Shown piece by piece: positions 46,521-64,000 of a stretch of 64,000 bases of DNA (position 1 is the first letter of the stretch; each line of letters opens with the position of its first letter). Below the pieces are notes generated by a model, which saw nothing but the letters and a program-made list of their open reading frames with translations, ran no database searches and was not told where the DNA came from. The DNA comes from Arthrobacter sp. Bi26. GTDB taxonomy: Bacteria; Actinomycetota; Actinomycetes; Actinomycetales; Micrococcaceae. Location: NCBI RefSeq assembly GCF_918697925.1, contig NZ_CAKKMF010000021.1:1-64000 (forward strand), written 5' to 3'. The translations under genes were made by a program, and so were the position numbers.

Positions 46521-46990
46521 TGAACCGTCTCGGACGGGGCCGCTTTGCCGGTGAAGGCGGTCAGCAGTTCGCGCTGCAGCCCGAACATCTCTTCCTTCTC
46601 TTCCGGCTCCGCGTGGTCATAGCCCAGCAGGTGCAGGATGCCGTGCGTGGTCAGCAGCAGCATCTCGTCCTGGGTGGAGTGGCCGGCGTTGCGGGCCTGG
46701 ACCTCGGCCACCTGGGGGCAGATGGCGATGTCGCCGAGCATGCCCTGGGGCGTCGGCTTGTCCGGCGTGCCCGGGGTGAGCTCGTCCATAGGCACGGAAA
46801 GGACATCGGTGGAGCCGGGTTCGTCCATCAGTTCAAGGTGGAGCTTTTCCATGGCCGGTTCGTCCACCAGCAGGATGGACAGTTCCGCCTGCGGGTGGAT
46901 GTAGAGGCTTTCGAAGATGAAACGCGACAGAGCCACGAGCTCCGACTCGTCCACGACGACGCCGGATTCGTTGTTGACCTCAATGCTCAT
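46517..46990 (-). CDS. ybeY: rRNA maturation endoribonuclease YbeY
   Basis: A 157-residue zinc RNase with the three-histidine site in HGILHLLGYDH (about residues 116-126). STDVLSVPMDE and LGDIAICP are conserved. It matures 16S rRNA 3' ends. Its ATG overlaps the phoH stop by four bases. Confidence 0.95.
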   Translation of the reverse strand: MSIEVNNESGVVVDESELVALSRFIFESLYIHPQAELSILLVDEPAMEKLHLELMDEPGSTDVLSVPMDELTPGTPDKPTPQGMLGDIAICPQVAEVQARNAGHSTQDEMLLLTTHGILHLLGYDHAEPEEKEEMFGLQRELLTAFTGKAAPSETVQ

Positions 46991-48075
46991 GCGTGTTCTC
47001 CCCGCGTTTCCCGGGCAACGGAGTGCTTGACCCGGTTCCTTTGGACTTCGTCCCAGATGCTGTAGGCGTTGACGATATCCCCGACCAGGCGGTGCCGGAC
47101 GACGTCGGAGGCATCCAGGATCGAGAAGTTGACGTCCTCGATCCCCTGCAGGATCTCCTCGACGATCCTGAGCCCCGAGCGGGTGCCGAAGGGCAGGTCC
47201 ACCTGGGTGATGTCCCCGGTGACCACCATCTTGGAGCCGAAGCCCAGACGGGTCAGGAACATCTTCATCTGTTCCGGCGTGGTGTTCTGGGCCTCATCGA
47301 GGATGATGAAGGCGTCGTTCAGCGTCCGGCCGCGCATGTAGGCCAGCGGGGCGACTTCGATGGTGCCGGCGGCCATGAGGCGCGGAATGGATTCGGGGTC
47401 CATCATGTCGTGCAGGGCGTCGTACAAGGGCCGCAGGTAGGGGTCGATCTTGTCGCTCAGGGTGCCCGGCAGGAAGCCTAGCCGCTCCCCCGCCTCGACG
47501 GCGGGACGGGTCAGGATGATGCGGCTGACTTCCTTCTGCTGCAGGGCCTGGACCGCCTTGGCCATCGCCAGGTAGGTCTTGCCGGTACCGGCCGGCCCGA
47601 TCCCAAAGATCACCGTGTTCGCGTCGATCGCGTCCACATAGTTCTTCTGGTTCAGCGTCTTGGGCCGGATGGTCTTCCCGCGGGTGGAGAGGATGTTGGT
47701 GGTCAACACTTCCACGGGGTTCTGCAGTGACTGGCTGCGGAGCAGGGAGACGAGCTGCTGCAGGACGGCCGGGGTGATGACGGTGCCCCTGGCCACCAGC
47801 CCGCGCACCTCGTTGAGCAGGCGCATGATGCGCGGCACGTCGGCGGCAGGACCGCTGATGGCAAGCTCATTCCCGCGGACATGGAAATCGACGGCGGGGA
47901 ACTGGTTTTCGATGAACCTTAAGGCTTCGTCATGGCTGCCCAGCGACTGGACCATCTGTTCTGAGTCGTCGAACACGACCACCTCCGTCCGCAGCCCTGG
48001 TAGGGAGTGGGGGAATTCCCCTGCGGTGCGTTCTCGGGCGCTGAACCGGGCCTTGCCGTTCGCTGCTTCAGTCAT
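46987..48075 (-). CDS. phoH: PhoH-like ATPase
   Basis: A 362-residue P-loop ATPase. Walker A is GIGPAGTGKTYLA and Walker B is DAFIILDEAQNTTPEQ. The N-terminal ~110 residues contain a KH-like segment. ATG at 48075 is used since the upstream extension to 48330 has no conserved sequence. It is the first gene of phoH-ybeY-corC-era, and links to RNA metabolism are inferred from this context. The 129 bases from 48076 to 48204 hold no gene. Confidence 0.93.
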   Translation of the reverse strand: MTEAANGKARFSARERTAGEFPHSLPGLRTEVVVFDDSEQMVQSLGSHDEALRFIENQFPAVDFHVRGNELAISGPAADVPRIMRLLNEVRGLVARGTVITPAVLQQLVSLLRSQSLQNPVEVLTTNILSTRGKTIRPKTLNQKNYVDAIDANTVIFGIGPAGTGKTYLAMAKAVQALQQKEVSRIILTRPAVEAGERLGFLPGTLSDKIDPYLRPLYDALHDMMDPESIPRLMAAGTIEVAPLAYMRGRTLNDAFIILDEAQNTTPEQMKMFLTRLGFGSKMVVTGDITQVDLPFGTRSGLRIVEEILQGIEDVNFSILDASDVVRHRLVGDIVNAYSIWDEVQRNRVKHSVARETRGEHA

Positions 48076-48204
48076 GGTGTTGGCCCGCGGGCCTCTGGTC
48101 CCCTCCAGTATGAATATGGTCGGTCGCCGTGATCCGTACCGACGGCGGTTCGCACCGCCCGCGGCCCGGGTCAACGGGTGCTTCCATCTTACGCCAGCGC
48201 GGCG

Positions 48205-48238
48205 CGCCCGACGCCGTACGGGGAACCGGCGTCGGGCG
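48205..48238 (-). terminator. terminator after the flavin reductase/small ORF pair
   Basis: CGCCCGACGCCG and CGGCGTCGGGCG form a perfect 12-bp stem with a 10-base loop, starting directly after the stop codon of the small ORF. Confidence 0.65.
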
Positions 48239-48415
48239 TTACACGTCGGTGTTTCCGAAGCCGACCCACCCATCCAGCCAGTGGGCGCCGGTAACCGGGA
48301 ACGGCTGTACAGCGCTCCCCCGCTCCGCATCGTCCCCGCGGCCGGGCCGAGCCGGCCGTGCCGCCGTCAAGGCCCAGGCTGCCCACAAGCGGGACAGCGA
48401 CTGCAGCATGGTCAT
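48239..48415 (-). CDS. small ORF translationally coupled to the flavin reductase
   Basis: A 58-codon frame whose ATG overlaps the flavin reductase TGA (ATGA). It begins MTMLQSLSRLWAAWALTAAR, probably one amphipathic helix, and ends WLDGWVGFGNTDV. The stop abuts a terminator hairpin, as expected for the last cistron of a two-gene operon. No known family. Confidence 0.5.
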   Translation of the reverse strand: MTMLQSLSRLWAAWALTAARPARPGRGDDAERGSAVQPFPVTGAHWLDGWVGFGNTDV

Positions 48416-48927
48416 GCCACGCTCTCCAGCGCGCCGGCGCCGGACCGGACACCGACGTAGTCTCCCTTGTAGAAGAGCAGGGGCTCGGCGCCGGGTCGTG
48501 CGCCCAGGGCGCGGACGGCGCCGACGACGATCGTGTGGTCCCCGCCGTCGTACTCCTGGTGCAGTTCGCAATCCACCCAGGCCAGTGCCTGGTCCAGGAC
48601 GGGGTTGCCCAAGGGCGAGGGCGAGTGCTCAACGCCGGCGAACTTCTCCGTTCCCGACCGGGCGAACTGCCCCGCGAGATGCTGATGTTCTGCGGGCAGG
48701 ATGTTCACGGTAAACCGGCCCGCCTCACGCAGCAGCGGCCAGGTGGTGGACGTCCGTGCCGGGCTGAAGGTGACAAGGGCCGGCTCCAGGGACAGGGAGG
48801 AGAAGGACTGGCACGTGAACCCGGCCGGCCCGTGCTTCGTTGCTGCCGTGATCACCGTCAGGCCGGTGGCGAAGTGTCCGAGAATGTGGCGGAGTGTCCT
48901 CGGGCTGAGATCAGTTTGTTCCGTCAT
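48412..48927 (-). CDS. flavin reductase family protein
   Basis: A 171-residue FMN/FAD-binding split-barrel protein of the HpaC/flavin-reductase-like family. HFATGLTVITAA is the N-terminal signature. GFTCQSFSSLSLEPALVTFSP contacts the flavin, and DHTIVVGAVRAL lies near the end. ATG at 48927 follows AAAGGA. Such enzymes supply reduced flavin to two-component monooxygenases; no monooxygenase gene is next to it. Confidence 0.9.
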   Translation of the reverse strand: MTEQTDLSPRTLRHILGHFATGLTVITAATKHGPAGFTCQSFSSLSLEPALVTFSPARTSTTWPLLREAGRFTVNILPAEHQHLAGQFARSGTEKFAGVEHSPSPLGNPVLDQALAWVDCELHQEYDGGDHTIVVGAVRALGARPGAEPLLFYKGDYVGVRSGAGALESVA

Positions 48928-49156
48928 GGCGGGTCCTTTCGACGCTGGAAACCCCAATCAACCACCGCGGACCCGGCTTCCCAAGCCCGGCTGCAACGCA
49001 CAGTCGCGCAGCGACACAGCGCGTCACGGACCCGTTGCATGACGTAAAAATTCGGCACCGCCTGGGAACCTTGCGGACCGTAGGGACCTGGACCGCGGGC
49101 TGCCGGCGGCATCCGGGTAACTGGGGTTCGCCGGCCATGGCCGCTAGGCTCGGTCG

Positions 49157-49703
49157 ATGCCAAACTCCGAGAACCTGTTGGACGTCAGATCCGCGTATGA
49201 CACAGTTGATCGACGTCGGATGCGGTGCCGGACGAATGACCAGCTACCTCAGCCACGCCGGGCTGAACGTCAGCGGCGTCGACCTGTCGCCCGAAATGGT
49301 CCGGGTCGGGCAGCAGCTGCATCCCGAGCTGTCGTTCGAAGTCGGAGAGCTGACTGACCTGCCGGCAGCCGACGCCGCTGCAGACGGCATCCTGGCCTGG
49401 TATTCGATCATCCACTCTCCCCCGACGGCCCTGCCGGCGATCGCGCGCGAGTTCTGGAGAACGCTCCGCCCAGGCGGCTCGGCCCTCATCGGATTCCACG
49501 CCGGCAGCGGCCACCGCACTATTGACCGTGCCTACGGACACGACGTCCAACTCCGTGCAGAACGGCACGCCCCCGACGACGTGGCGCTGCGGTTCACCGA
49601 GCAAGGTTTTGTGATGCGCGCCCAGCTTGTGCGTTCGCCGAGAGCCATGGAGAAAGACCCTCAGGCCGCCATCCTCGTCGACAAGCCCTCCGTCCCCTCG
49701 TAG
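49157..49703 (+). pseudogene. SAM-dependent methyltransferase with internal deletion
   Basis: The start reads NSENLLDVRSAYDTV, the N-terminus of a class I methyltransferase family. It then jumps, in another frame, directly to the SAM-binding motif LIDVGCGAGRMTSYL. About 45-60 residues normally lie between them. The rest (LSPEMVRVGQQLHP, ILAWYSIIHSPP) is intact to the stop. A translation from the in-frame ATG near the GxGxG motif would lack the N-terminal helices, so loss of function is likely. Confidence 0.75.
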
Positions 49704-49850
49704 GGATTTCACCCGCAGCGGGTGAGGCCCATGCCACGCATGACGCCAACAATAGTCATACCTTCCACTGGCAGGGCTGAAGGACGGACCGTCCCGGAAA
49801 CGAGAAGGCGTCGCACCGAGACGCCGCAACTTTGAGAGCAGGAATCACAA

Positions 49851-50057
49851 ATGATTCTCCCGGGAAACTTTTGGGATATTTTCTGGTGGTTCCTCACAGC
49901 GTCCGTATTCTTTGCCTGCCTGTTTGGTGTTTTTGCGCTCATCGGTGACCTCTTTCGCGCTCAGGAATTGAACCATTCCAAAGCCAAGGAACTCCTGGAC
50001 GCTGGAACCGGCAGCGCTGAAGAGTTAGAAAGAATCAAGAACCGTGTGCTCGTCTGA
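49851..50057 (+). CDS. shortened SHOCT-domain membrane protein
   Basis: A 68-residue protein with one membrane helix (FWDIFWWFLTASVFFACLFG) and then a SHOCT-type tail (SKAKELLDAGTGSAEELERI). It parallels the protein at 17133 at both ends but lacks its second membrane helix and linker (about 55-60 residues), an in-frame internal deletion. AGCAGGA precedes the ATG. It may still be made. Confidence 0.65.
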   Translation: MILPGNFWDIFWWFLTASVFFACLFGVFALIGDLFRAQELNHSKAKELLDAGTGSAEELERIKNRVLV

Positions 50058-50092
50058 CGGCGTTCGCGGCATCGAAGAACGTTGAGGCAGCA

Positions 50093-51559
50093 GTGCGCGG
50101 ATTCTTCCAGGATATTGAAACGTTCGCCTTGCTCCTGCTGGCGGCCCACATACTGCTCGTGACCGTCGCAACTGTCCTCGTGTCGATGAATCGCCGTCCA
50201 TCCTCTGCTATTGCCTGGGTGCTCGCCATAATCTTCATACCGATCCTTGGTGCAATCGCGTTTTTCTTTGTCGGTTACTCGAAACTGCCCAAGGCGCGCC
50301 GGGACAAACAGCGCGAAGTCAACAATCTGGTCCTGGCGCGGACTGAAGGCAGCCCGCTGGTTAGCCGCGGCCTTGACTGGCCGGAGTGGCTGCATTCTGC
50401 GGTGGTATTGAACAGCAACCTTGGGGCGCTCCCTATGGTGTCGGGCAATAGTGCGACCCTATTGGGCGACTACAACGGCACTTTCGATGCCATGATCGCT
50501 GAGATTGATTCGGCCACCAGTTACGTGCACGTGGAGTTTTACATCCTGGTGCTGGACGCAACGACGACGCCGTATTTTCAAGCGTTGGCCCGGGCAAGAC
50601 GACGCGGCGTCGACGTCCGGGTTCTGTCCGATCATTTGGCTGGCCTGAAGTTCCCCGGCCGGAAAGAAACCCTGGACTTCTTCCAGGAGATAGGGGCGGA
50701 ATATCGCCCCATGCTGCCGGTGCGGCCATGGCGCGGCGAATGGCAGAGGCCTGACCTGCGCAATCACCGGAAGATCTTGGTCGTCGATGGCCGCGTGGGA
50801 TTCACTGGATCCCAGAACGTCATCGACGCGAGCTACGACACGAAGGCCAACCTGAAGCGCGGGCTCCAGTGGCACGAGCTGATGATGCGCGTTGAGGGAC
50901 CTGTGGTCCGGGAACTGGATGCGGTCTTCGCGACGGACTGGTACAGCGAAACGGATGTGATACTGCCACTGGATTCAAGCCCCATAGGCGCCAGCCACGG
51001 TTCTGCACTCATTGACGCACAAGTCCTGCCCAGCGGTCCCAGCTTCGACAACGACAACAATTTGAAGCTCTACGCGACGCTCATCCACAAAGCTGAGCGG
51101 CGTGTCAGCATCACCAGTCCATACTTTGTCCCGGACGAATCCATCCTGATGGCTATTGTCACGGCAGCCGCGCGGGGGCTAAGCGTCGAGCTCTTTGTTT
51201 CCGAGGTCGGAGACCAGAGCATGGTCTACCATGCTCAGCGTTCCTACTACGAGGCACTGCTCCGCGCCGGCGTCAGGATCTACCTATACCGGTCGCCCAA
51301 GGTGCTGCACTCGAAGCACTTCACCATCGATGAGGAGGTTGCGGTAATTGGGTCCAGCAACATGGATGTCCGTTCCTTCAGCCTCAACATGGAGGTATCC
51401 GTACTTGTGCACGGGCGCGGTTTTGTGGACGCAATTCGAGGGATCGAAGACGGGTACCGCGTGGAAAGCCGTGAGCTGCAGCTCGCGGACTGGCTCCGGC
51501 GGCCCATAGCCCAAAAAGTATTCGACAACCTGGCGCGCCTGACAGCCTCCCTCCAATAA
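50093..51559 (+). CDS. cls: cardiolipin synthase
   Basis: A 488-residue phospholipase-D superfamily enzyme that condenses phosphatidylglycerol into cardiolipin at the membrane. Two N-terminal helices (PLDc_N; about residues 9-30 and 40-60) are followed by two HKD motifs, NHRKILVVDGRVGFTGSQN and LHSKHFTIDEEVAVIGSSN. The GTG start is 36 bases after the small SHOCT gene, which shares the PLDc_N-like membrane type, so the two may be co-expressed. Confidence 0.93.
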   Translation: MRGFFQDIETFALLLLAAHILLVTVATVLVSMNRRPSSAIAWVLAIIFIPILGAIAFFFVGYSKLPKARRDKQREVNNLVLARTEGSPLVSRGLDWPEWLHSAVVLNSNLGALPMVSGNSATLLGDYNGTFDAMIAEIDSATSYVHVEFYILVLDATTTPYFQALARARRRGVDVRVLSDHLAGLKFPGRKETLDFFQEIGAEYRPMLPVRPWRGEWQRPDLRNHRKILVVDGRVGFTGSQNVIDASYDTKANLKRGLQWHELMMRVEGPVVRELDAVFATDWYSETDVILPLDSSPIGASHGSALIDAQVLPSGPSFDNDNNLKLYATLIHKAERRVSITSPYFVPDESILMAIVTAAARGLSVELFVSEVGDQSMVYHAQRSYYEALLRAGVRIYLYRSPKVLHSKHFTIDEEVAVIGSSNMDVRSFSLNMEVSVLVHGRGFVDAIRGIEDGYRVESRELQLADWLRRPIAQKVFDNLARLTASLQ

Positions 51560-51685
51560 GGAATTGGCGAACCCTTTGGAGGGGTCCTTGCTTCCAGGAA
51601 GACGAAGGCGCCGGCTACGGAGTGCTAGCTGATGCCCAAACCGGCTGGCTACCTTCCTTGACACTCGGCTGGCAGGTGCCCGGCC

Positions 51686-52042
51686 TCACGCCGTTCGCGA
51701 GATGTCCGCAACTACCTGATCGATTTGATACCTGGAAACCCGCGCAAGGGCCGGGTTGGTGTGGACATAGTAGGGATAGGTGATGATTCCAATCGACAGT
51801 GCCCAAGCGCGGCCGCGTTCCCACGTCGTCTGGTCAACGCCTACTGCATCGCGAAATGCGGCGCGTCCTTTATCCTCGAGCAGGTTCCAGGCGACGATGA
51901 GGTCGACCGCCGGATCGCCAATGGCCTCCCCAGTCGAGGACACCGGCGAGCCGCGCGTCGGCAATCATAAGGTTTCCTGGTTGCAAGTCCGTGTGAATCC
52001 AGACCTGCTCCCCTTCAGCGAGGCCGATGCGTCGGCTACGGC
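51686..52042 (-). pseudogene. truncated, frameshifted APH-type phosphotransferase
   Basis: The minus strand reads VWIHTDLQPGNLMIADARL and GVLDWG (catalytic loop and start of the DFG-like region). It then shifts frame to AIGDPAVDLIVAWNLLED and continues to ITYPYYVHTNPALARV at the stop. The whole N-terminal lobe is missing, cut off where the GNAT gene begins at 52054. It is therefore a 5'-truncated and frameshifted remnant. Confidence 0.75.
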
Positions 52043-52053
52043 ATGATGAAGAC

Positions 52054-52565
52054 ATGGAATTGCAGACTGAGCGTCTCCTGCTGCGCGAGTACACGATGGA
52101 TGATTTCGCAGCGGTACATTCGTTCGCTTCTGATGTGAGAATCGCCGATTTCGTGGACTGGGGACCGAATACAACCGGCGAAACTCAGGAATTCCTCGAA
52201 ATGTGCGTGGGGGCGCAACGCGGCGCGAGCCGGACAAACTTCACTCTCGCTGTCACCTTTCCGGGTGGCTACCCTTTTGGTTCTGTCGGGCTCGCCGTTG
52301 ATCAGGGCCGGGGCGAACTCGGGTACGTGATTGATGCTGACCACTGGTGCCGCGGGTATGCCACTGAGGCCGCAGCCTCCCTCCTCAGATTCGGCAAAGA
52401 AACCCTCAGACTGCGGGACGTTACCGCAACCTGCAGACCACCGCTTCGGCGAGGGTGCTGGAAAAGATGGGTATGGTCCAGGTCGGATTGCGGAGGGCGG
52501 ACAAAATCATTCGTGGGCATTGGCGGGATTCTCTCGTCTTTTCAGCGGTCAACACCACCTGGTAA
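52054..52565 (+). pseudogene. GNAT acetyltransferase with frameshift
   Basis: A RimJ/RimL-like GNAT begins MELQTERLLLREYTMDDFAAV and runs through GELGYVIDADHWCRGYATEAA to ATCRP. The normal continuation NxASARVLEKMGMVQVG is found in a different frame from about 52442 (ASARVLEKMGM) and ends at TAA 52563-52565. A small deletion near 52437-52442 explains this. The frame actually read gives an unrelated tail to 52584. Confidence 0.75.
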
Positions 52566-52618
52566 CGCACGGGACGGCGGGTGACCTCAGTTGAAGCCCA
52601 GCGTGGCACGTTGCCCGG

Positions 52619-53116
52619 TTATATGTCAGACCGGACCATCCGTATCTCAGGTAGTTCCTCCCAGTCGGGTGAAAGCAACTTGCGTTTCCCATCGGGCCTA
52701 AAACCGTTCTTGGCATAGAAGGCCCGGGCGCGGGCGTTGGCCTCGAGCACCCACAGATAGGCGGGTAAATCGCCGAGTGCGGCCTTCAGCAGCGCGACAC
52801 CGAGCCCAGTGCCATGCGTGCGCCTCAGAGTGTAGATGGAGTAAAGCTCAAATTCTCCGGGCAAGTCATGGTCACGTCCCGTACCTGCGTCGGCAAATCC
52901 AACGATTTCATCGCTCGCGTCCAAGGCGATGATTCGAGGCTGAGCGCTGTCCAGATACGCTCGACGTTTTTCCACGCGCTCCGGGATGCTGGCACGGCGC
53001 GCATCGAAGAATTCCGAGGGCAAAAGGTGCCCCTAGCATTCCTCATGGGCCAGGGTGTGCATCCGAACTACGGCATCAGCATCCTCAACCGCGGCCTGGC
53101 GGATCTGGTATTCCAT
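52619..53116 (-). pseudogene. GNAT acetyltransferase with internal stop
   Basis: From ATG 53116 the frame reads MEYQIRQAAVEDADAVVRM and on to HEEC, then a TAG at 53033-53035, then GHLLPSEFFDARR and a complete GNAT body. The body includes LYSIYTLRRTHGTGLGVALL (acetyl-CoA loop) and ANARARAFYAKNGF. Without the stop it is a normal 165-residue GNAT. A restart at the downstream ATG (53023) would miss strand 1 and helix 1. Confidence 0.75.
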
Positions 53117-53217
53117 CTGCCCAGCCTAGCTTTGACCCTGTTGTTCCGTGGCCGGGACCCGCAGTAAAAGTAGGGCCGCGAGGGAAGCCACTTTACGAGC
53201 AATGCCATACTGACGCC

Positions 53218-53439
53218 ATGGCCATCCGGCTTTGCTTCTACGCCGGATATGCGGTTGCGTTGATGATCGACGTGGCGTCGATATTTTCGTCGTCGGAACC
53301 CGCAGCAGATTCAGGCTTCGCCATTCTGGCCGCCGTCTTCCAAACTCCATTGGTCCTCATCGCATCTGCCGGCGCAGTCGCAGCCATTGTTCTTCGGAAA
53401 GACGCGCCTCCCAGAACCGGGGCTACCCAGGCCCCCTGA
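53218..53439 (+). CDS. possible small membrane protein
   Basis: A 73-residue frame with two hydrophobic segments (about residues 4-22 and 33-58) and a polar tail. No family and no clear ribosome-binding site. Confidence 0.4.
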   Translation: MAIRLCFYAGYAVALMIDVASIFSSSEPAADSGFAILAAVFQTPLVLIASAGAVAAIVLRKDAPPRTGATQAP

Positions 53440-53557
53440 ACATTCTTGCGGATCGTCTCTGTGCCGGCTGCCGCGAAAGTGATCCATTCGCCCGGGCCTT
53501 CGAGGGCTGCTCAAGCCAGACAGAGCACATCTCCGTCCCTCCGAGCTCCACGACGCT

Positions 53558-54652
53558 TTGACCATCCGCGATCTTTCAGATCCGGACGGCCGGCCCCATG
53601 CGATGCAGCCGCTGTTGCAGGGCATCATCGACGCTCTCTGCCATGAATGGGCAGTGCCAGGACGAATCGTCCGCCACAGCCCCCTCGTGAGTGTGGCCGA
53701 CAATTACGATCGTTTGGGGTTCAACGCATCGGACGTCACGCGGGACCAAAGGTACTCCCGCTACCTCAGTCCAACGGTCATGCTCCGCAGCCACACGTCG
53801 GCATCCATCCCGTCGCAGCTGCGGGCACTGGACGACGACGCATCCACGGACGAACTCTGGGCCGTCCCCGGTCTGGTCTATCGACGCGACTGCGTCGACC
53901 GCACCCACGTGGGAACTCCCCACCAGGTCGACCTGTGGCGCGTCAGCTCGCTAGAAAGACTCGACGCAGAGAACCTGCAGGACATGATCGGATCGCTGGT
54001 GAAGGCGGTGCTTCCAGGGGCACGATGGCGCGCAGTTCCAGCCGTTCATCCCTACACCAGAGAAGGCTTGCAGGTCGATGTCCTCATGGAGGGAGAGTGG
54101 CTCGAACTCGCAGAATGCGGGCTCATGGCACCTCATCTGTTCTCCGAAGCCGGCCTGGATCCCACAAGGTGGTCTGGCCTGGCTCTTGGGATGGGTTTGG
54201 ACCGGGCCCTGATGCTCCGCAAAGGCATCCCCGACATCAGGTTGCTTAGGTCGACGGACGAGAGAATCGAACAGCAGATGCTGGACCTGTCCCGGTGGAA
54301 ACCGGTCTCCCAGATGCCATCCATCCGCAGGGACATCTCCATCGTGGTTCCCGCGGACATGGATACCGAAGTGCTCGGTGACCGAGTGCGAACAGCATTA
54401 GGCGAAAAGGCCGAGGACCTGGAAAGCGTCGAACTCTTGGCCCTAACTTCGTATGGAGACCTTCCGGTAAAAGCGCAGGAACGACTTCGCATCTGCGATG
54501 GGCAGGCCAACGCACTAATACGTCTGGTGCTGCGTCCCCTCGCTCGGACCATGACGGATGCAGAGGCGAATCAGATCCGGGACGATGTTTATCTGGCCCT
54601 GCACGAGGGGCCAGTCCGGGAGCTCATTGCAGGACAGAACCGAACGAATTAG
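53558..54652 (+). CDS. PheRS-like stand-alone ligase with FDX-ACB domain (SrmL-like)
   Basis: About 364 residues from TTG 53558. The first ~250 residues are a class II aminoacyl-tRNA synthetase core related to PheS: THVGTPHQVDLWRV resembles motif 2 and GLALGMGLDRALMLRKGIPDIRLLR is motif 3. The last ~100 residues (MPSIRRDISIVVPADMD onward) are a ferredoxin-fold anticodon-binding domain like that of PheT. This PheS-core plus FDX-ACB plan is that of mitochondrial PheRS and of the actinobacterial 'mystery ligase' SrmL. The open frame continues upstream to about 53482 with protein-like sequence (RPSELHDALTIRD) but no good start, so the 5' end may be damaged or use an unusual codon. Confidence 0.75.
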   Translation: MTIRDLSDPDGRPHAMQPLLQGIIDALCHEWAVPGRIVRHSPLVSVADNYDRLGFNASDVTRDQRYSRYLSPTVMLRSHTSASIPSQLRALDDDASTDELWAVPGLVYRRDCVDRTHVGTPHQVDLWRVSSLERLDAENLQDMIGSLVKAVLPGARWRAVPAVHPYTREGLQVDVLMEGEWLELAECGLMAPHLFSEAGLDPTRWSGLALGMGLDRALMLRKGIPDIRLLRSTDERIEQQMLDLSRWKPVSQMPSIRRDISIVVPADMDTEVLGDRVRTALGEKAEDLESVELLALTSYGDLPVKAQERLRICDGQANALIRLVLRPLARTMTDAEANQIRDDVYLALHEGPVRELIAGQNRTN

Positions 54653-54903
54653 GTATCAACTTTGTATCGGCCTCATATCGTTCCCGTTGCAGTTCCGGCG
54701 CCGGGACCGAAACCCGGCTGTCGCGCCGTGCCGGTGTGCCATGCTGGAATCCGGCTGTCCCAGGATCGCCGGGCTGCTCTCCGGCAGGTGAAGGATGGGG
54801 CGGTCACGAGCGGTCTACGACGGCTACAACGGATCATCGCCGCGGAACGCGGGGCATAAGAAGGGACAGCGGCATCAGGAAGCGTGAAGTTCAGCACTCA
54901 TCG

Positions 54904-55830
54904 GTGGGGCGCGTCCGCCGCGCCGCGCTGGCGCTGGCGCTGCCCGCCGCCCTCCTCCTGTCCGGCTGCGTGGCAACGCCGCAGAGCGGCATCACGAACT
55001 CCAGCAGCCCGTCGGAGCTCATTCCCGTCCCGGCGTCGGGTGTGCCCACCACCAGCGCTCCGCTCGAAACAGCCCAGACGTCGAACAAGGCTCCGGTGTA
55101 CTGGATCGGCCGGAGCAATGACAACGCGTTCCTCTACCGCGAGTTCCGTGACGTCCCTGACCAGGACAACCCCGTCACCCGCGCCCTGCGGGTGATGATG
55201 TCCCAGAAGCCGCTGGACCCGGATTTCTTCACGCCCTGGCAAAACCCGAAGAAGCTCGCGACGTCGATTTCCGGCAAGAATGTCATCACGGTGGATGTCT
55301 CGGCGGATGCCTTCAACAGCAACGTGGATGCGGCCATGGCCGAGCGCGCCATCCAGCAGCTCGTCTACACGGCGACGGCTGCCGCGGCCAGCGCAGGCCT
55401 TATCGATGCCGGACAGCAGATCCAGGTGGTTGTGCTGGTTGACGGTCACACGGACTACGTGGCCTTCAACCATGTCCGGCTGGGCGAGCCGACGTCCCGC
55501 AGCGCCGGGATGGTGGCACCTGTGTGGATCATTGATCCGCAGGAAGGCACCTCCGTGGCTGACGGTTCGGTCAAGATCAGCGGCCGGAGCACCGTCCAGG
55601 GCGGGAAGCTCCGCTGGGCGATCCTCAAAGTCGACGGTGACGGCGACAACGACAAGACGGCCTATCTCAACGGCAACGCCACGGCCTCGGCCGACTCCGT
55701 CAAGTCCGGGCTGTTTACCTTGTCCGTGAACCTCGGCCCGGGCCGTTACGAGGTCCGGGTGTCCCAGGTGGACGCGTCGGACAGCGCCAAGGAAGTGTTC
55801 CAGGACACCCGCGGCTTCACGGTTAAATAG
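54904..55830 (+). CDS. GerMN/Gmad2-domain lipoprotein
   Basis: About 308 residues from GTG 54904, chosen because it gives a normal lipoprotein signal (VRRAALALALPAALLLSGC). A GerMN domain follows (about residues 75-185; NPVTRALRVMM, ITVDVSADAF), then a C-terminal Gmad2 immunoglobulin-like domain (PVWIIDPQEGTSV... to the end). It is probably anchored outside the membrane. The pairing resembles part of LpqB-type proteins. The true start could lie further upstream. Function unknown. Confidence 0.8.
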   Translation: MGRVRRAALALALPAALLLSGCVATPQSGITNSSSPSELIPVPASGVPTTSAPLETAQTSNKAPVYWIGRSNDNAFLYREFRDVPDQDNPVTRALRVMMSQKPLDPDFFTPWQNPKKLATSISGKNVITVDVSADAFNSNVDAAMAERAIQQLVYTATAAAASAGLIDAGQQIQVVVLVDGHTDYVAFNHVRLGEPTSRSAGMVAPVWIIDPQEGTSVADGSVKISGRSTVQGGKLRWAILKVDGDGDNDKTAYLNGNATASADSVKSGLFTLSVNLGPGRYEVRVSQVDASDSAKEVFQDTRGFTVK

Positions 55831-55883
55831 TCTTTCGCGTCAAATGGTCTTGCGCGTCAAGAAGCGACGACGCCGGCCGCCGG

Positions 55884-56657
55884 TTACCAGCGGCCGAGGA
55901 TGTCGCTGGCCAGTACGGTGGCGGCGGGCCCCGCGGTGGACGAGCGCAGCACATGGTGGCCCAACAGGGCCGTGACCGCCCCCGCGTCGCACAACCGGGT
56001 CACCTCCCGCGGGCTGATGCCGCCTTCAGGGCCCACGATCAGCAGCACTTCACGGGACCCGCTGTCGCCGGGCTGCGCGGTTGCCAGCCATGATTCGAGT
56101 ACGTGCCGCAGCGGTCGGACGGCATCTTCGTGCAGGATGACCGCGAGATCTGCGGCCGCCACGGCCGCCTGCAGACCGGCGCCGTCCACTGCCGCCCGGA
56201 CCTCCGGTATCCAGGCCCTGCGCGCCTGCTTGGCTGCTGCTGTCACCACCGACTGCCATTTGGCGTGCGCCTTCGCGGCCCGTTCAGCCTTCCACCGCAC
56301 AATGGACCGCTCCGCCTGCCAGGGAATGACGGCGTCGATGCCCAGCTCGGTGGCCGTTTCGGCCGCAAGTTCGTCACGGTCGCCTTTGGCGAGGGCCTGG
56401 ACCAGGACCAGCCGGGTCCCGGGCCGCGGCTCGTTGGCAACCTCGAGGCACTCGACGGTCAGCTCGCCGGGCAGGGCGGCGGTCACCGTGCCGGTCAGCC
56501 GCTTGCCCGCGCCGTCGGCGATGTCGACGGCCTCGCCGACGGCGATCCGCTTGACGGTGACGGCGTGGCGGGCCTCAGGGCCCTCCAGGACGAAGGCGGA
56601 GCCGGGGACCTGCTGGTCCAAGGTGCCGGGGGCGGTGAAGAAGACCGGGTTACTCAC
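55884..56657 (-). CDS. rsmE: 16S rRNA (uracil1498-N3)-methyltransferase
   Basis: A 257-residue SPOUT (trefoil-knot) methyltransferase. An N-terminal PUA-like domain (to about residue 75) is followed by a knot with the SAM loop LLIVGPEGGISPREV and the C-terminal HHVLRSSTAGPAAT. The GTG start is two bases after the dnaJ stop, so it is coupled to dnaJ-hrcA. Confidence 0.95.
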   Translation of the reverse strand: MSNPVFFTAPGTLDQQVPGSAFVLEGPEARHAVTVKRIAVGEAVDIADGAGKRLTGTVTAALPGELTVECLEVANEPRPGTRLVLVQALAKGDRDELAAETATELGIDAVIPWQAERSIVRWKAERAAKAHAKWQSVVTAAAKQARRAWIPEVRAAVDGAGLQAAVAAADLAVILHEDAVRPLRHVLESWLATAQPGDSGSREVLLIVGPEGGISPREVTRLCDAGAVTALLGHHVLRSSTAGPAATVLASDILGRW

Positions 56658-56659
56658 CG

Positions 56660-57790
56660 CTACAGGTTACCGAGCCTGTCCCGGAGTTTAGCGAAGACGC
56701 CGCCGCTGGCCGCGAGCTTTCCGGCCGTGAAGTGCTCGCCGCGCAGCTTGGCCAGCTGGCGGAGCAGGTCTTCCTGGGCGGCGTCGAGCTTGCCCGGTGT
56801 TTCGACCTGCAGGTGCACTTTCAGGTCACCGCGCCCGTGGCCTCGCAGGTGGGTGACACCAAGGCCGCGCAGTGTGATGATCTCGCCCGACTGGGTGCCG
56901 GCCCTGACGTCGATCTCCTGCTGCCCGTCGAAGGTGTCGAGGCTAATTTCGGTGCCGAGTGCGGCGGCCGTCATGGGGATGTTGAGGCTCGCGTGCAGGT
57001 CGTCGCCGTCGCGGACGTACGTGGCGTCGTTGTTGACCCGGATCTCCACGTACAGGTCCCCCGCCGGACCGCCGGCGGGCCCTGCCTCGCCCTGGCCGGA
57101 CAGCTGGATGCGGGTGCCGGTGCCGACGCCGGCCGGTACCTTGACGGTCAGCGAGCGGCGGCTGCGGATCCGGCCCTGGCCGCTGCATTCGTTGCAGGGG
57201 TCCTTGATGACGGTGCCGAAGCCCTCACAGGACCCGCAGGGCGCCGAGGTCATGACCTGGCCCAGGATGGAGCGCACAGCGCGCTGGACCTGGCCACTGC
57301 CGCCACAGATGTCGCAGCGCACCGGGTGGGTGCCCTCGCGGCAGCAGGAGCCTTCGCAGGTGGGGCAGACGACAGCCGTGTCGACCTCAAGCTTCTTGTT
57401 CACGCCGAACACCGCGTCGCGCAGGTCAATCCGGACGCTGATCAGCGCATCCTGGCCGCGGCGGACACGGGACGCCGGGCCGCCCTGGCCGCCGCCCGCC
57501 CCGAAGAAGGTCTCGAAGATGTCTTGGAAGGCGAAGCCCTGGCCTGAGTAGCTGCCGCCACCGAAGCCGTTGTCGGTGCCGTTCTCGTTGCCGGTGGTGT
57601 CATACACCCGGCGTTTCTGCGGATCGGAGAGGACCTCATAGGCGTGGGTGACGGCCTTGAACCGGTCCGAGGCGTCTTCTCCTGGGTTCACGTCCGGGTG
57701 CAGGGTCCGGGCCAGTTTCCGGTAGGCCTTCTTGATCTCCTCCCCCGTTGCGTCGCGGGAGACTCCAAGAACGTCATAGTGGCTGCTCAA
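56660..57790 (-). CDS. dnaJ: chaperone DnaJ (second copy type)
   Basis: A 376-residue DnaJ. The J domain carries HPD (about residues 33-35), then a Gly/Phe-rich region. Four zinc repeats follow (CPTCEGSC, CDICGGSG, CGSCEGFG, CNECSGQG); the first ends in Cys instead of Gly. Two beta-barrel substrate domains complete it. The TTG start at 57790 follows AAGGAAGAG. Position after hrcA marks it as the HrcA-controlled DnaJ2. Confidence 0.95.
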   Translation of the reverse strand: MSSHYDVLGVSRDATGEEIKKAYRKLARTLHPDVNPGEDASDRFKAVTHAYEVLSDPQKRRVYDTTGNENGTDNGFGGGSYSGQGFAFQDIFETFFGAGGGQGGPASRVRRGQDALISVRIDLRDAVFGVNKKLEVDTAVVCPTCEGSCCREGTHPVRCDICGGSGQVQRAVRSILGQVMTSAPCGSCEGFGTVIKDPCNECSGQGRIRSRRSLTVKVPAGVGTGTRIQLSGQGEAGPAGGPAGDLYVEIRVNNDATYVRDGDDLHASLNIPMTAAALGTEISLDTFDGQQEIDVRAGTQSGEIITLRGLGVTHLRGHGRGDLKVHLQVETPGKLDAAQEDLLRQLAKLRGEHFTAGKLAASGGVFAKLRDRLGNL

Positions 57791-57868
57791 AGTGTGTATC
57801 TCTTCCTTTTCATACTGCCGGTGGGGCACTGCCTGTGGGGCAAGAAGTCGCGTTCGGTCCCGGGCCCG

Positions 57869-58882
57869 TCAGGGCCCCAGGATCCTCGAAAGGTAACGGG
57901 CCACCGCGCGGACGGCGGCCATGGTGGTGGGATAGTCCATCCGGGTGGGTCCAAGGACGCCGACCTTGGCCGTGGCGTCCGGCCCGTAGGCAGTGGCCAC
58001 GACCGAGGCCTCGGCAAGACCGACGTACGGATTCTCCCGGCCGATGCTGACGGTTACGCCGCGCGGGTCTTCGGCCATTTCGCTGAGCAGGCGGAGCATG
58101 ACCACCTGCTCCTCGAGCGCCTCCAGCACGGGGCCGATGCTGAGCGGGAAGTCCACATTGGAGCGTGCCAGATTCGCGGTACCGGCCATGACCATCCGCT
58201 CTTCGCGACTGCTCGTGGCCAGGGCTTCAACGCCGCGGGCCAGGGCCTGGGCCGCTCCGCGGCTCACCGGCGCGCCACTGGCGACGACCGTGGGCAGAAG
58301 CTGGGGCAGCAGGCTCAACGGCGTTCCGGAGAGGCTCGCCAGGAACCGTGTACGCAGCTCCGCCAGGGCGTCGTCGGGAAGGTCCTGCCCGACGTCGATG
58401 ACGCGCTGCTCCACTTTGCCGGTGTCCGCTATGAGGACAATCAGCACCTTCCGGGGGGCCAGCAGCACGAATTCTATGTGCCGCACCTTGGCTCGGCTGA
58501 GCAGCGGATACTGCACGACGGCGACCTGGTTGGTCAGGTGGGAGAGGAGCCTCACGGTCCGGTCGAGGATGTCGTCGAGGTCCTCGGATCCTTCCAGCAA
58601 CGCCTGGATGGCCCGGCGCTCGGCCGAAGACAATGGCTTCACCGCTGAAATCTGGTCAACGAAAAGCCGGTAGCCCTTGTCGGTGGGGATCCGGCCTGCG
58701 CTAGTGTGCGGTGCCGTGATCAGGCCTTCGTCCTCCAGCGCCGCCATGTCATTTCGGATCGTGGCGCTGGACACGCCAAGATGGTGCCGCTCAACGAGCG
58801 CTTTGGAACCAACGGGCTCACGCGAATGGACGTAGTCCTCCACGATGGCGCGCAGCACTTCGAGTTTGCGCGGTTCGCTCAC
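57869..58882 (-). CDS. hrcA: heat-inducible repressor HrcA
   Basis: A 337-residue repressor. The N-terminal winged helix (VSSATIRNDMAALEDEGLI, HTSAGRIPTDKGYR) is followed by the HrcA GAF-like domain and dimerisation segment. GTG at 58882 follows GGAGGTGGA. It represses the operon through CIRCE at 58993 and normally needs GroEL to fold. Confidence 0.95.
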   Translation of the reverse strand: MSEPRKLEVLRAIVEDYVHSREPVGSKALVERHHLGVSSATIRNDMAALEDEGLITAPHTSAGRIPTDKGYRLFVDQISAVKPLSSAERRAIQALLEGSEDLDDILDRTVRLLSHLTNQVAVVQYPLLSRAKVRHIEFVLLAPRKVLIVLIADTGKVEQRVIDVGQDLPDDALAELRTRFLASLSGTPLSLLPQLLPTVVASGAPVSRGAAQALARGVEALATSSREERMVMAGTANLARSNVDFPLSIGPVLEALEEQVVMLRLLSEMAEDPRGVTVSIGRENPYVGLAEASVVATAYGPDATAKVGVLGPTRMDYPTTMAAVRAVARYLSRILGP

Positions 58883-58992
58883 GCTCCACCTCCAATCGAC
58901 TGTCCCGCAGTCGGTGCCGCCCGCGTTGTCCGGTTCGCGCCCAGAAGCAGTACCCAGAAGTAATACTGAGACGGCCCTCTTCGGGACAAGGG

Positions 58993-59019
58993 TTAGCACT
59001 CGACATGCCTAAGTGCTAA
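58993..59019. promoter_or_regulatory. CIRCE operator upstream of hrcA
   Basis: TTAGCACTC, nine bases, then AAGTGCTAA. The CIRCE consensus is TTAGCACTC-N9-GAGTGCTAA, so there is one mismatch, in the right arm. It lies 111 bases before the hrcA start and 194 before DUF3097, in the divergent intergenic region. Confidence 0.93.
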
Positions 59020-59212
59020 CCAGTCTAATATGAGTCGCCGCGTTGTTAGCATTGGATTCGCTCCAGGCGTGGCCCTCGCGATCGCGATTCCCGTCACGTC
59101 GGTGCCGAGACCGTGGCAGCCGCTGCCGTTGCCGCGCCGTCGCGGTCCGGTTCCGGCCCCGGAGAGTTCCACCGACCGCCGTACATTCCGAGTGCAAAGT
59201 AAGCGTGTAGAG

Positions 59213-60064
59213 ATGTCGTACCAGAACTGGGGACCCCAGGACCTGTCCGCCCCCGCCAAGACCCAGTTGCCGGAAGTCCCGGTGGAACGCGGGATGGTCC
59301 TCGAGGAGGTCCAGTCCGGCTGGGTGGGTGCCGTGACCCGGGTGGAAAAATCCGGCGGCATGCACGTGGTGGCGTTGGAGGACCGGCGGGGCAAGTCCCG
59401 TTCCTTCCGCCTCGGCTTTGGCTTCCTGTTGGACGGCCAGCCGATCCGGCTGATGCCGCCGGCCCCGAAGAAGGCGGCGCCGGCCGCCGGTGCCGGCCGC
59501 ACGGCGTCGGGTTCGGTGCGGGTGGCGGGGCACCGCGCACAGGTGGCCAAGGCCAGCCGCATCTGGGTGGAAGGAAAGCACGACGCCGAACTGGTGGAGA
59601 AGGTCTGGGGCGATGACCTCCGTGTGGAGGGCATCGTCGTCGAACCGCTGCACGGCATTGACGACCTCGCGGCCGCCGTGGCGGAGTTCGGGCCGGGCCC
59701 GGGCCGCCGCCTCGGCGTGCTCGTTGACCACTTGGTGGCCGACTCCAAGGAGTCACGGATCGCCGACGCCGTCATGGCGTCACCGGGCGCCGCCGGCAAC
59801 GTCCTGATTGTGGGCCACCCCTACGTCGACGTGTGGCAGGCCATCCGGCCCGCGGTCCTGGGTATTGAGCAGTGGCCCGTGATCCCGCGCGGCGTCGACT
59901 GGAAGACCGGCATCCTCATGGCATTCGGGTGGCCACACTCCACGAAGGAGGACATCGGCCTCGGCTGGCAGAAACTTCTGGGGGCTGTCCGCAGCTATGC
60001 GGATCTGGAGGCGTCCCTGCTGGGCCGCGTGGAAGAGGTCATTGACTTCCTCACCGTGCCCTAG
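59213..60064 (+). CDS. DUF3097 protein
   Basis: A 283-residue actinobacterial protein. SRIWVEGKHDAELVEKVWGDDLR and RLGVLVDHLVADSKESRIAD resemble the metal-binding acidic core of a TOPRIM-like domain. ATG at 59213 begins MSYQNWGPQDL. No experimental role is known to me. It is conserved next to hrcA. Confidence 0.9.
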   Translation: MSYQNWGPQDLSAPAKTQLPEVPVERGMVLEEVQSGWVGAVTRVEKSGGMHVVALEDRRGKSRSFRLGFGFLLDGQPIRLMPPAPKKAAPAAGAGRTASGSVRVAGHRAQVAKASRIWVEGKHDAELVEKVWGDDLRVEGIVVEPLHGIDDLAAAVAEFGPGPGRRLGVLVDHLVADSKESRIADAVMASPGAAGNVLIVGHPYVDVWQAIRPAVLGIEQWPVIPRGVDWKTGILMAFGWPHSTKEDIGLGWQKLLGAVRSYADLEASLLGRVEEVIDFLTVP

Positions 60065-60208
60065 TCCGCCGCGGCGGACACTCCCTGATCTCCATTTCCG
60101 CGCCCGAGCAAGTATTCTTGGAACGGCGGCCGCGCACCCAGCGCGGTTCCGGCTATTCCAGGCACAACCCAGGCAGCAACGCATCACCGCAATCCGAAGG
60201 GCTATACC

Positions 60209-60628
60209 GTGGCAGATAACGCACGCGAACACACGGGCAACCAGGCCGGCCAAGGTCAGCCCCCGTACCATGGCGTTCCGGCAAATGCGCTGCCGCTGAC
60301 GGCCAGCGAGGACCGGCAATGGGCCACGCTGGCCCACTTCGGCGGCATCCTAGGCTGCGTTCCGTCGCTGCTGATCTACCTCATCTTCAAGGACCGCGGC
60401 CCGTTCACGGCGCAGGAATCCAAGGAAGCCCTCAATTTCACGTTGCCGCCGACCATCGCCGCGGTGCTCGCCAATCTGCTGGTGTTCATTCCCGTGGTGG
60501 GCAACCTCTTCGCCGTGCTCGCCACCGTGATCTGGATCGCCGTGACGTGCTTCTCGGTGGCGGCAGGCATCCACGTCAACCGTGGCCAGCCGCACCGGTA
60601 CGAGTTCAACCTGCGCTGGATCAAATAG
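60209..60628 (+). CDS. DUF4870 membrane protein
   Basis: A 139-residue protein with a polar N-terminus and three membrane helices. RQWATLAHFGGILGCVPSLLIYLI starts the domain and VQSKEALNFT-type sequence (AQESKEALNFTLPP) follows. The GTG start at 60209 follows CCGAAGG. Function unknown. Confidence 0.9.
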   Translation: MADNAREHTGNQAGQGQPPYHGVPANALPLTASEDRQWATLAHFGGILGCVPSLLIYLIFKDRGPFTAQESKEALNFTLPPTIAAVLANLLVFIPVVGNLFAVLATVIWIAVTCFSVAAGIHVNRGQPHRYEFNLRWIK

Positions 60629-60645
60629 CCCAGCCCGGACCCAAG

Positions 60646-60694
60646 CAAGAAGAGCCGGCCGCTTCCCACCAGGGGTAGCGGCCGGCTCTTCTTG
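60646..60694. terminator. terminator between DUF4870 and hemW
   Basis: CAAGAAGAGCCGGCCGCT and its complement form an 18-bp stem around a 13-base loop, between convergent genes. Confidence 0.85.
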
Positions 60695-60752
60695 TGCGGC
60701 TTCATCGTTGTGTGCGGCAGCTTAGTCGGGCCGCACGGTTAGGTGCGGCCGT

Positions 60753-61991
60753 TCAGTCCGGCAGGATCCTGCGGACCACGGCGTCGGCCAGCAGCCGGCC
60801 CTTGAGCGTAAGGATGAGCCGGCCCTTGAAAGCGGCCGCGGGGTCCACGAGGCCGTCGGCAATCAGCCCCGCGACGGCGTGCCTGCCCGTGTCCCCGAGG
60901 CCGCCGAGGCTGGGGATGTCGAGTCCGGAGTTCAGCCGGGCCTCGAGCATGACGCGTTCCACGTTGCGGGTTTCGGGGTCCAGCGTTTCGCGTCCGGCGG
61001 CGGGCGAGACCCCGGCGCCGAGGCGGTTGGCGTAGGCGGTGGGGTGCTTGACGTTCCACCACCGCACGCCTCCGACGTGGGAGTGCGCCCCGGGTCCGAT
61101 GCCCCACCAGTCGTCCCCCCGCCAGTAGGCGAGGTTGTGCCGGCAGGCCTGTTCGGGGGTGCGGGACCAGTTGCTGACCTCGTACCAGGCGAGCCCGGCC
61201 GCGGAAATCAGCTCGTCGGCGAGTTCGTACTTGGCCGCGTGGTCGTCGTCGTCGATTTCCGGCACTTCGCCGCGGCGGATCTGCGCCGCAAGTTTGGTGC
61301 CGTCCTCCACAATCAGGGCATAGGCGCTGATGTGGTCGGGGGCGTAGGACAGTGCAGTCTCCAGTGAGAAGCGCCAGTCATCCAGCGACTCCCCCGGCGT
61401 CCCATAAATGAGGTCGAGGCTGACCGCGAGCCCCGCGTCCCGCGCCCACCGCACCACTTCGGGCACCCTGCTGGGCGTGTGGGTGCGGTCCAGGACCTTC
61501 AGGACGTGCGGCACGGCCGACTGCATACCAAAGGACACCCGGGTGAACCCGGCGTCGGCGAGCAGTTGCAGTGACTCGGGCGTGACGGAATCCGGGTTTG
61601 CCTCGGTGGAAACCTCGGCGCCGGGCTGCAGGCCCCAGGCGCCGATCGCGGCCGTGAGTATGCGCGCCAGATCCTCGGCCGGCAGCAGCGTGGGCGTGCC
61701 GCCGCCGAAAAAGACCGTGCTGAGGGGGCGCGCGGGCAATCCGCTGCGATTCAGGGCCTCGGCGGCGAATTCCACTTCCGCGACCGCCGTGGCGGCGTAG
61801 GCGTCCTGGGAGGCGCCGCCGCCCAACTCGGTGGCGGTGTAGGTGTTGAAGTCGCAGTACCCGCAGCGGACCGCGCAGAACGGGATGTGCACGTACAGCC
61901 CGAAGGCACGCTGATCGGCGCCCTGGCACGCCTGGGCGGGCAGGAGCCCGTCCGGCGGCGCCGGGTCGCCCAGGGGAAGAACGCTAGGCAC
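60753..61991 (-). CDS. hemW: radical SAM heme chaperone HemW
   Basis: A 412-residue protein of the HemN-like radical SAM group. The 4Fe-4S motif is CAVRCGYC, after YVHIPF. VFFGGGTPTLLP and LDLIYGTPGESLDDW are conserved, and a C-terminal HemN domain is present. The CxxxCxxC cluster lacks the extra cysteine of true HemN, so it is probably the heme chaperone. The GTG start lies 45 bases after the lepA stop. Confidence 0.94.
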   Translation of the reverse strand: MPSVLPLGDPAPPDGLLPAQACQGADQRAFGLYVHIPFCAVRCGYCDFNTYTATELGGGASQDAYAATAVAEVEFAAEALNRSGLPARPLSTVFFGGGTPTLLPAEDLARILTAAIGAWGLQPGAEVSTEANPDSVTPESLQLLADAGFTRVSFGMQSAVPHVLKVLDRTHTPSRVPEVVRWARDAGLAVSLDLIYGTPGESLDDWRFSLETALSYAPDHISAYALIVEDGTKLAAQIRRGEVPEIDDDDHAAKYELADELISAAGLAWYEVSNWSRTPEQACRHNLAYWRGDDWWGIGPGAHSHVGGVRWWNVKHPTAYANRLGAGVSPAAGRETLDPETRNVERVMLEARLNSGLDIPSLGGLGDTGRHAVAGLIADGLVDPAAAFKGRLILTLKGRLLADAVVRRILPD

Positions 61992-62036
61992 GGGCCCGGC
62001 CTGCCGTCACTGCAGCAACAGTCATTACCAGCACCG

Positions 62037-63890: not shown

Positions 63891-64000
63891 GCAGGGTCCT
63901 TACTGTTGGCATTAAGGTTGGCTGTCCACGGATCGGCGCGGATGCTGGTTTCCCATCCTGCGACGTGGCGCATTTGTCGTTCCTAATAGTCTCCCACGTC

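Follow-up and report, generated by a model that had tools for sequence, protein, structure and literature searches.

SrmL of Arthrobacter, a PheS-related ligase with the build of mitochondrial PheRS: leaders of its relatives suggest a spare phenylalanyl-tRNA synthetase

The window analysed here (the whole stretch of 64,000 nucleotides from an Arthrobacter sp. Bi26 contig) contains a SrmL gene which is real, with the features listed in Table 1. Counted from the first possible start codon, TTG 53558, the open frame 53483-54652 gives a protein of 364 residues, which is a member of the NCBIfam family NF051887 by its curated cut-off (53558-54652; 531 bits against 300) and covers the profile completely (349/349 positions); the name SrmL given in the initial annotation is borne out. 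Pfam recognises the class II core (PF01409) with 112 bits, and an FDX-ACB domain (PF03147) in the same chain is matched weakly, with 29.8 bits, just below the Pfam cut-off of 31.1. The curated cut-offs of the models for true PheRS are not reached, neither that of TIGR00469 (mitochondrial PheRS; 134 bits against 258) nor that of TIGR00468 (pheS; 98.6 bits against 237). The sole other PheS-type gene of the genome, the usual pheS, lies on another contig (C34), and SrmL is separate from pheST.

An AlphaFold2 model of SrmL, built from 62 sequences, has a mean pLDDT of 92.9. Its best structural matches, over the whole chain, are entries of human mitochondrial PheRS (8P8X against model residues 1–355: Z 33.2, 329 residues, 2.3 Å, identity about 28%), followed behind PheRS by PylRS and SepRS with Z 18–20. 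SrmL resembles mitochondrial PheRS (FARS2; 3CMQ, 8P8X) in being a single chain of PheS core and FDX-ACB in which no editing domain is seen, whereas it differs in its low sequence identity, in missing the TIGR00469 cut-off and in having other pocket residues. The predicted fold and the domain matches agree with the initial annotation on the union of the two parts in one chain, on the likeness to the mitochondrial enzyme and on the position of the gene outside pheST.

Alignment with the genome's own PheS places the two class II motifs (Table 1). In motif 2, R109, D111, D114, H117, H122 and Q123 are the same in both proteins and R110 differs; the motif 3 arginine, R216, is common to both. The arginines of motifs 2 and 3 and the HQ pair are kept, and the lack of motif 2/3 catalytic residues, which the initial annotation had named as refuting its reading, does not apply. 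The amino-acid pocket departs from that of the own PheS in two signatures (Table 1), as well as at residue 125 (Asp in SrmL, Glu in PheS) and residue 121 (Pro in SrmL, Phe in PheS), and H164, Y166, T167, E186, D125 and P121 are invariant in the 62 SrmL sequences. The two pocket stretches read NPYT and GNSG in the human cytosolic enzyme, which is a true PheRS; since it varies at the same places, the changes in the SrmL pocket neither exclude nor prove Phe as the substrate.

Table 1. Positions of the SrmL gene remnant and of its recognisable parts in the window
Feature	Position	Strand	Basis
Foreign sequence	53483..53528	.	At this place four orthologous loci carry the end of the leader, the Shine-Dalgarno sequence and the start codon
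Remaining SrmL coding sequence	53529..54652	+	Homology to orthologues from 53529; stop TAG 54650-54652; first candidate start TTG 53558
Class II aminoacyl-tRNA synthetase core, PheS type, residues 46-240	53693..54277	+	PF01409; structural match
Motif 2 region YRRDCVDRTHVGTPHQ, residues 108-123	53881..53928	+	Alignment with the genome's own PheS
Pocket signature HPYT, residues 164-167	54047..54058	+	Own PheS has FPFT
Pocket signature ECG, residues 186-188	54113..54121	+	GCG in the own PheS; identical across 62 SrmL sequences
Motif 3 region LALGMGLDRA, residues 208-217	54179..54208	+	Alignment with the genome's own PheS
FDX-ACB (ferredoxin-fold anticodon-binding), residues 251-349	54308..54604	+	PF03147 below cut-off; structural alignment to residue 355

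The start at 53482 given by the initial annotation is merely the edge of the open frame, 53483 being the first base after a stop codon, and it hides the loss of the true start. From 53529 (53526 for L061) to 64000 the window is collinear with four orthologous loci, L052, L053, L059 and L061; the breakpoint at 53529 corresponds to L052:9972, ten bases inside the L052 gene (ATG at L052:9962). Because homology to these loci begins only there, the window is without the start codon, the Shine-Dalgarno sequence, the leader and the first codons of the gene. Relatives (22 inspected) start mostly with ATG, one with GTG, 45 nt ahead of the profile match and behind an AAGGACC-like Shine-Dalgarno sequence, while TTG 53558 is the earliest in-frame ATG, GTG or TTG in the window. 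The leader with a Phe codon that precedes SrmL in most relatives (see below) is likewise absent: the leader model R1 finds no convincing leader in the window, the best match having an E-value of 0.15 and lying on the opposite strand (52714-52784). The promoter is lost too, together with leader, Shine-Dalgarno sequence and start codon. At the other end of the gene, the TAG of L005, the nearest of the compared relatives, is CAG in the window, and the frame extends by about 5–6 residues to its present stop.

The description of the surroundings as an accessory island holds for the patchwork upstream of 53529 and not for 53529-64000, which is collinear with the four loci. The patchwork (46000-53528) comprises a flavin reductase, a methyltransferase, a cardiolipin synthase and two GNAT genes, with parts that match L052, L053 and L061 and gaps in between; a 92-aa ORF within it (51686-51964) has only a weak likeness (E 0.008) to the terminal part of an APH phosphotransferase. 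A Germane-domain lipoprotein gene (54736-55830), common to L052, L053, L059 and L061, adjoins SrmL, and beyond it begins the conserved RsmE/DnaJ/HrcA/LepA side of the locus (these four named by eye).

The remaining coding body has dN/dS values of 0.135 against L052, 0.110 against L053 and 0.162 against L061, comparable to the 0.131–0.175 found among those relatives themselves, and carries one change at positions invariant across nine relatives, both of which indicate that the loss of the 5′ end is recent. Lacking leader, Shine-Dalgarno sequence and start, the window copy is probably either silent or dependent on a foreign start for its expression. Considered alone, it is somewhat more likely than not to be a functionless accessory gene in ordinary decay, irrespective of what the family does: its start, Shine-Dalgarno sequence and leader are gone and its stop codon is altered, the genus holds further broken copies (G021, G031 and G089, split or cut), and an N-terminally cut copy in G024 is likewise without a leader. 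Against decay stand the constraint on the coding body, at the level of intact relatives (dN/dS 0.11–0.16), and the single change at invariant positions.

SrmL is patchily distributed. It is found above the cut-off in 33 of the 101 genomes of our genus sample, including the copy of G089, which passes though split; further genomes of the genus contain broken pieces (G021, G031) or small fragments (G058, G080, G084, G099), and these remnants, with the split copy, suggest repeated gain and loss. In a phylum sample SrmL exceeds the cut-off in 2 of 396 genomes (G000, G477), the window's genome among them. A scan of GTDB genome contigs gave 165 confirmed stretches, the best 80 of which were kept for study. 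Three plasmid records, one of them from Azotobacter, have a SrmL match at E ≤ 1e-30. In Glutamicibacter pGnB68 the gene lies behind a Cmx-type chloramphenicol efflux gene, with tet(33) about 8 kb further, and the C. diphtheriae plasmid OV884290.1 has a SrmL-like fragment (L135:8001-8657; query residues 139–357) between erm(X) and tet(65), where the PLSDB table annotates no gene. Phage copies occur in LR745206 and in five IMG/VR contigs. Scores of 387–524 bits put six phage and two plasmid SrmL proteins above the cut-off of NF051887.

In 79 of 83 loci SrmL is preceded by a short ORF, the leader, that contains a Phe codon (for example one encoding MLSTRRFTCPRPVSGREGSEARA up to its stop codon), these loci being the best 80 of the 165 GTDB stretches, phage L132 and two plasmid loci; L113 was assigned by hand. 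It was not found in L058, L063, L087 (where the contig has 74 nt upstream) and L132, which has a different leader of its own. The leader Phe codon is TTT in 77 leaders and TTC in 2, whereas among the 11,412 Phe codons of the ORFs called at the 80 GTDB loci TTT has a share of 0.109; together with the preceding codon it reads CGATTT (71 leaders), TCCTTT (4), or CGATTC, CGGTTT, TCATTT and TCCTTC (one each). Since the search pattern demanded a Phe codon, its invariance is no unbiased count; the codon bias and the surrounding alignment remain unbiased measures. A stem motif, CC[CT]CG, begins 6 nt past the Phe codon in 75 of the 79 leaders, and the residues before Phe vary freely, with Arg replaced by Ser in six leaders and Phe retained. 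Of 77 leaders, 68 have a TANNNT box ending 3–11 nt ahead of their start; the count falls to 3 when the position is shifted by 30 nt and to none at four larger shifts. With such a box just before its start the leader ORF is very probably leaderless.

Leader and gene travel together within the genus. A covariance model of the leader has a single match (E ≤ 1e-4) in each of 33 genomes out of the 101; of these matches, 32 lie directly upstream of SrmL, 30 of these genes being above the cut-off and two broken (G021, G031). The remaining match, in G027, is on another contig, and the SrmL gene of that genome begins 63 bases from a contig end. The above-cut-off copies without a leader are those of the window and of G024, both cut at the 5′ end. 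No match was obtained in the 396 genomes of the phylum sample, a result which is uninformative because SrmL is above the cut-off in only two of them and the filters were strict; two distant SrmL loci, L023 and L024, gave no R1 match at E ≤ 1. An Rfam search of the regions upstream of SrmL in 20 loci returned one ordinary tRNA only, the leader being absent at gathering score. Upstream of the genome's own pheS, a short inspection revealed pieces of the preceding coding region and no clear Phe-rich leader.

A consensus fold of 55 leaders (RNAalifold) shows a C-rich segment just past the Phe codon, the first half of which pairs with a distant G-rich segment and the second half locally. Pairing is kept in 98.9% of cells; cells with a double change number 37 against 13.3 in shuffled data, and the covariation score is 0.216 against 0.124 (each reached by 0/500 shuffles, with relatedness uncontrolled). 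At two single pairs both sides are changed, in 17 and 18 sequences, respectively. The numbers of pairs with a double change (3 against 2.2 shuffled; 105/500) and of further pair types (6 against 6.2; 500/500) are not better than in shuffles. The anti-Shine-Dalgarno segment fits the Shine-Dalgarno sequence of its own gene over those of others (mean stem 6.55 against 5.03); the self-complementarity of anti-SD:SD, of A:D and of A:B was each reached by 0/2000 permutations, with relatedness uncontrolled, whereas that of the control pair B:SD was reached by 1732/2000. In a folding scan, a ribosome placed at the Phe codon did not open the Shine-Dalgarno sequence (mean unpaired 0.326, against 0.307 without ribosome), the highest value, 0.481, being reached with the ribosome at the leader stop codon. 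A simple switch by ribosome masking, as it had been stated, is rejected, for accessibility barely shifts at the Phe codon. In Actinobacteria the switch would instead consist of a helix which is melted by the passage of the ribosome and stays intact while the ribosome waits; the position usually given for the helicase would make the spacing between Phe codon and helix fit this melting version.

Two phages have leaders of other kinds. In L132 the gap before SrmL encodes MNTNTTFNFFFSHKMV, ending in a stop codon, and contains a terminator; four Phe within five residues were seen in 9/5000 shuffles, and GTCTGAG, which overlaps the leader stop, is a 7-nt complement to the 5′ arm of the terminator (16/2000 shuffles). 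The leader of L157, MNMLNKNNFSFFMFDFFGTQARGAILLKE up to its stop codon, is also followed by a terminator and has six Phe within nine residues (20/5000 shuffles). Both are unrelated to the Actinobacterial leader, and both combine a Phe-rich leader with an intrinsic terminator. Between the leader's terminator and SrmL, L157 has a second hairpin (L157:3944-3966) with a TCTCCT arm that could pair with the Shine-Dalgarno sequence. No Phe-rich leader precedes SrmL in phages L136–L139. On the Azotobacter plasmid, SrmL is preceded by an RF leader and, by inspection, by a terminator in which the 5′ arm is a repeat of the leader's C-rich segment.

The phage genes also lie among translation genes. Huge phages with up to 15 synthetases have been described (PMC7162821). 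In L137 the nearest tRNA on either side of SrmL is tRNA-Phe, and in L139 tRNA-Phe is the second nearest tRNA upstream; none was found near SrmL in L132, L136, L138 and L157. One stretch of L136 contains a SerRS gene (440.5 bits, above cut-off), a short HisRS-like gene and SrmL; the HisRS-like protein, encoded directly before SrmL (L136:3348-3983; 211 residues), matches the N-terminal part of hisS only. SrmL is the strong PheS-type match in each of five phage records, two others being weak (21.1 and 18.2 bits), and no PheT B5 domain was found in six phage records. In the SrmL proteins of L137 and L139 Pfam finds no FDX-ACB at E ≤ 0.001, yet NF051887 is covered in full length.

Among the bacterial loci the neighbourhood is not conserved. 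The ORF calls on the 80 loci were clustered, and 114 next-door proteins (drawn from 60 loci, with 18 near-duplicates and two loci without a called SrmL left out) were scanned with Pfam. Neighbour families are not shared across clades, and no Pfam family occurs in more than 5 of the 114 proteins, so guilt by association yields no partner gene. Near SrmL at 84 loci (80 from genomes, 3 from plasmids and that of phage L132) no dedicated novel tRNA was seen; tRNA-Phe, too, is missing there, and the few tRNAs present are ordinary. The lipid or metabolite role considered in the initial annotation finds no support, as no neighbour family is common across clades and the conserved leaders carry Phe codons, which point to tRNA-Phe.

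With three kinds of Phe-codon leader ahead of an enzyme folded like mitochondrial PheRS, induction of a single-chain PheRS is the likeliest reading. We consider it probable that SrmL is a second, single-chain PheRS of mitochondrial build, which is induced when Phe-tRNA is scarce and charges tRNA-Phe; the leaders of the relatives, which seemingly sense a shortage of Phe-tRNA, suggest a spare enzyme of this type. What we infer is Phe as the substrate, tRNA-Phe as the acceptor, the natural stress and which way the switch works. The promoter of an intact Actinobacterial locus would lie directly upstream of the leaderless leader ORF, and the ribosome translating it would reach the Phe codon (nearly always UUU, usually behind the rare CGA) at a fixed distance before the RNA helix. 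With Phe-tRNA plentiful, the ribosome would proceed and disrupt the helix, leaving the srmL Shine-Dalgarno sequence paired with the anti-Shine-Dalgarno segment; with the ribosome waiting for Phe-tRNA, the helix would survive, the Shine-Dalgarno sequence would be open and SrmL would be made. The enzyme would then charge tRNA-Phe and bridge a failure of the housekeeping PheST. Huge phages would use the same enzyme within tRNA/synthetase islands, two of them with a Phe-rich leader and a terminator ahead of it. Several results weigh against this reading: the altered pocket, the scores short of the curated PheRS cut-offs, the folding scan, the two covariation counts no better than shuffles, the missing R1 match in L023 and L024, and the four phage loci with no tRNA-Phe near SrmL.

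The full picture that can be drawn from this is more tentative, and we hold it to be possible rather than probable: SrmL may be an emergency, proofreading-free single-chain PheRS and a horizontally spread resistance gene that counters natural PheRS inhibitors or a Phe-tRNA shortage of other cause, switched on by one ribosome waiting at the single UUU of a leaderless leader that directly abuts an RNA helix, and serving huge phages as their own PheRS. The putative resistance role against PheRS inhibitors fits the patchy, plasmid-borne spread, and with chloramphenicol efflux, erm(X) and tet(65) as plasmid neighbours a role in antibiotic resistance is possible.

Several other readings would account for part of these data. 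SrmL might recognise tRNA-Phe and load another amino acid (a Phe analogue, Tyr or a polar residue), like PylRS and SepRS, which derive from the same ancestral fold. The pocket residues H164, Y166, E186, D125 and P121, invariant in 62 SrmL sequences and unlike those of PheS, speak for such an enzyme, as does the rank of PylRS and SepRS just behind PheRS among structural matches; however, human cytosolic PheRS varies in the same pocket stretches while being a true PheRS, leaders in several lineages carry Phe codons and no dedicated new tRNA lies near the 84 loci, so we regard this reading as unlikely. About equally unlikely, in our view, is a leader acting as an antibiotic-arrest peptide, at which a ribosome-targeting drug would halt translation at Arg-Phe and turn on SrmL as a resistance gene. 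The layout with an anti-Shine-Dalgarno segment is that of translation attenuation, and one plasmid copy adjoins a Cmx efflux gene while one plasmid fragment lies between erm(X) and tet(65), but the residues ahead of Phe are free to vary, with Ser in place of Arg in six leaders while Phe stays, and the phage leaders, being Phe runs with terminators, are unlike drug-arrest leaders.

A ligase that is independent of tRNA or diverts it, aminoacylating a lipid, a metabolite or an antibiotic and merely tuned by the Phe supply, would be compatible with the patchy distribution of a stand-alone gene. The retained FDX-ACB domain, the lack of shared partner genes and the phage copies within islands of tRNA and synthetase genes leave this the least probable of the readings, and very improbable in itself.

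The inducible single-chain PheRS favoured here has precedents in regulation. In E. coli, the pheST operon is controlled by an attenuator with the pheM leader, and a leader with Phe codons ahead of a gene for a Phe synthetase is the arrangement proposed for SrmL, too. Phages L132 and L157 have the classical layout of the pheST attenuator, terminator included; Actinobacterial SrmL differs: its leader is leaderless with a single Phe codon, and an anti-Shine-Dalgarno segment takes the place of the terminator. Work by Canestrari et al. in 2020 is said to deal with the leaderless cysteine uORF attenuators of mycobacteria. As in such attenuators, a short leaderless ORF precedes a gene that deals with the corresponding amino acid, again in Actinobacteria; they differ in their runs of Cys codons and in belonging to sulfur operons; leaderless Cys-rich uORFs in mycobacteria are treated in PMC4633059. 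Attenuation of pheST is mentioned in PMC1262725, and the Actinobacterial attenuators listed in that source belong to genes for Trp, Cys and Leu, with no Phe gene among them.

As an enzyme, SrmL is comparable to the inhibitor-insensitive second synthetases (e.g. MupA IleRS2), which are likewise patchy, mobile and additional to the housekeeping enzyme; to our knowledge, there is no PheRS example among them. The protein family had already been named: the NCBI entry NF051887 calls it a mystery ligase and gives no substrate, and a search of the open PMC literature found no paper on SrmL or its leader. The Phe-codon leader, the proposed RNA switch and the phage copies come from the present analysis.

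If the leader does sense Phe-tRNA, the substrate of this 'mystery ligase' family would become directly testable. Single-chain PheRS would then exist beyond mitochondria, attenuation by one codon in Actinobacteria and a use of the enzyme by phages would be added, and there would be a hint of natural PheRS inhibitors against which bacteria may keep a spare enzyme.
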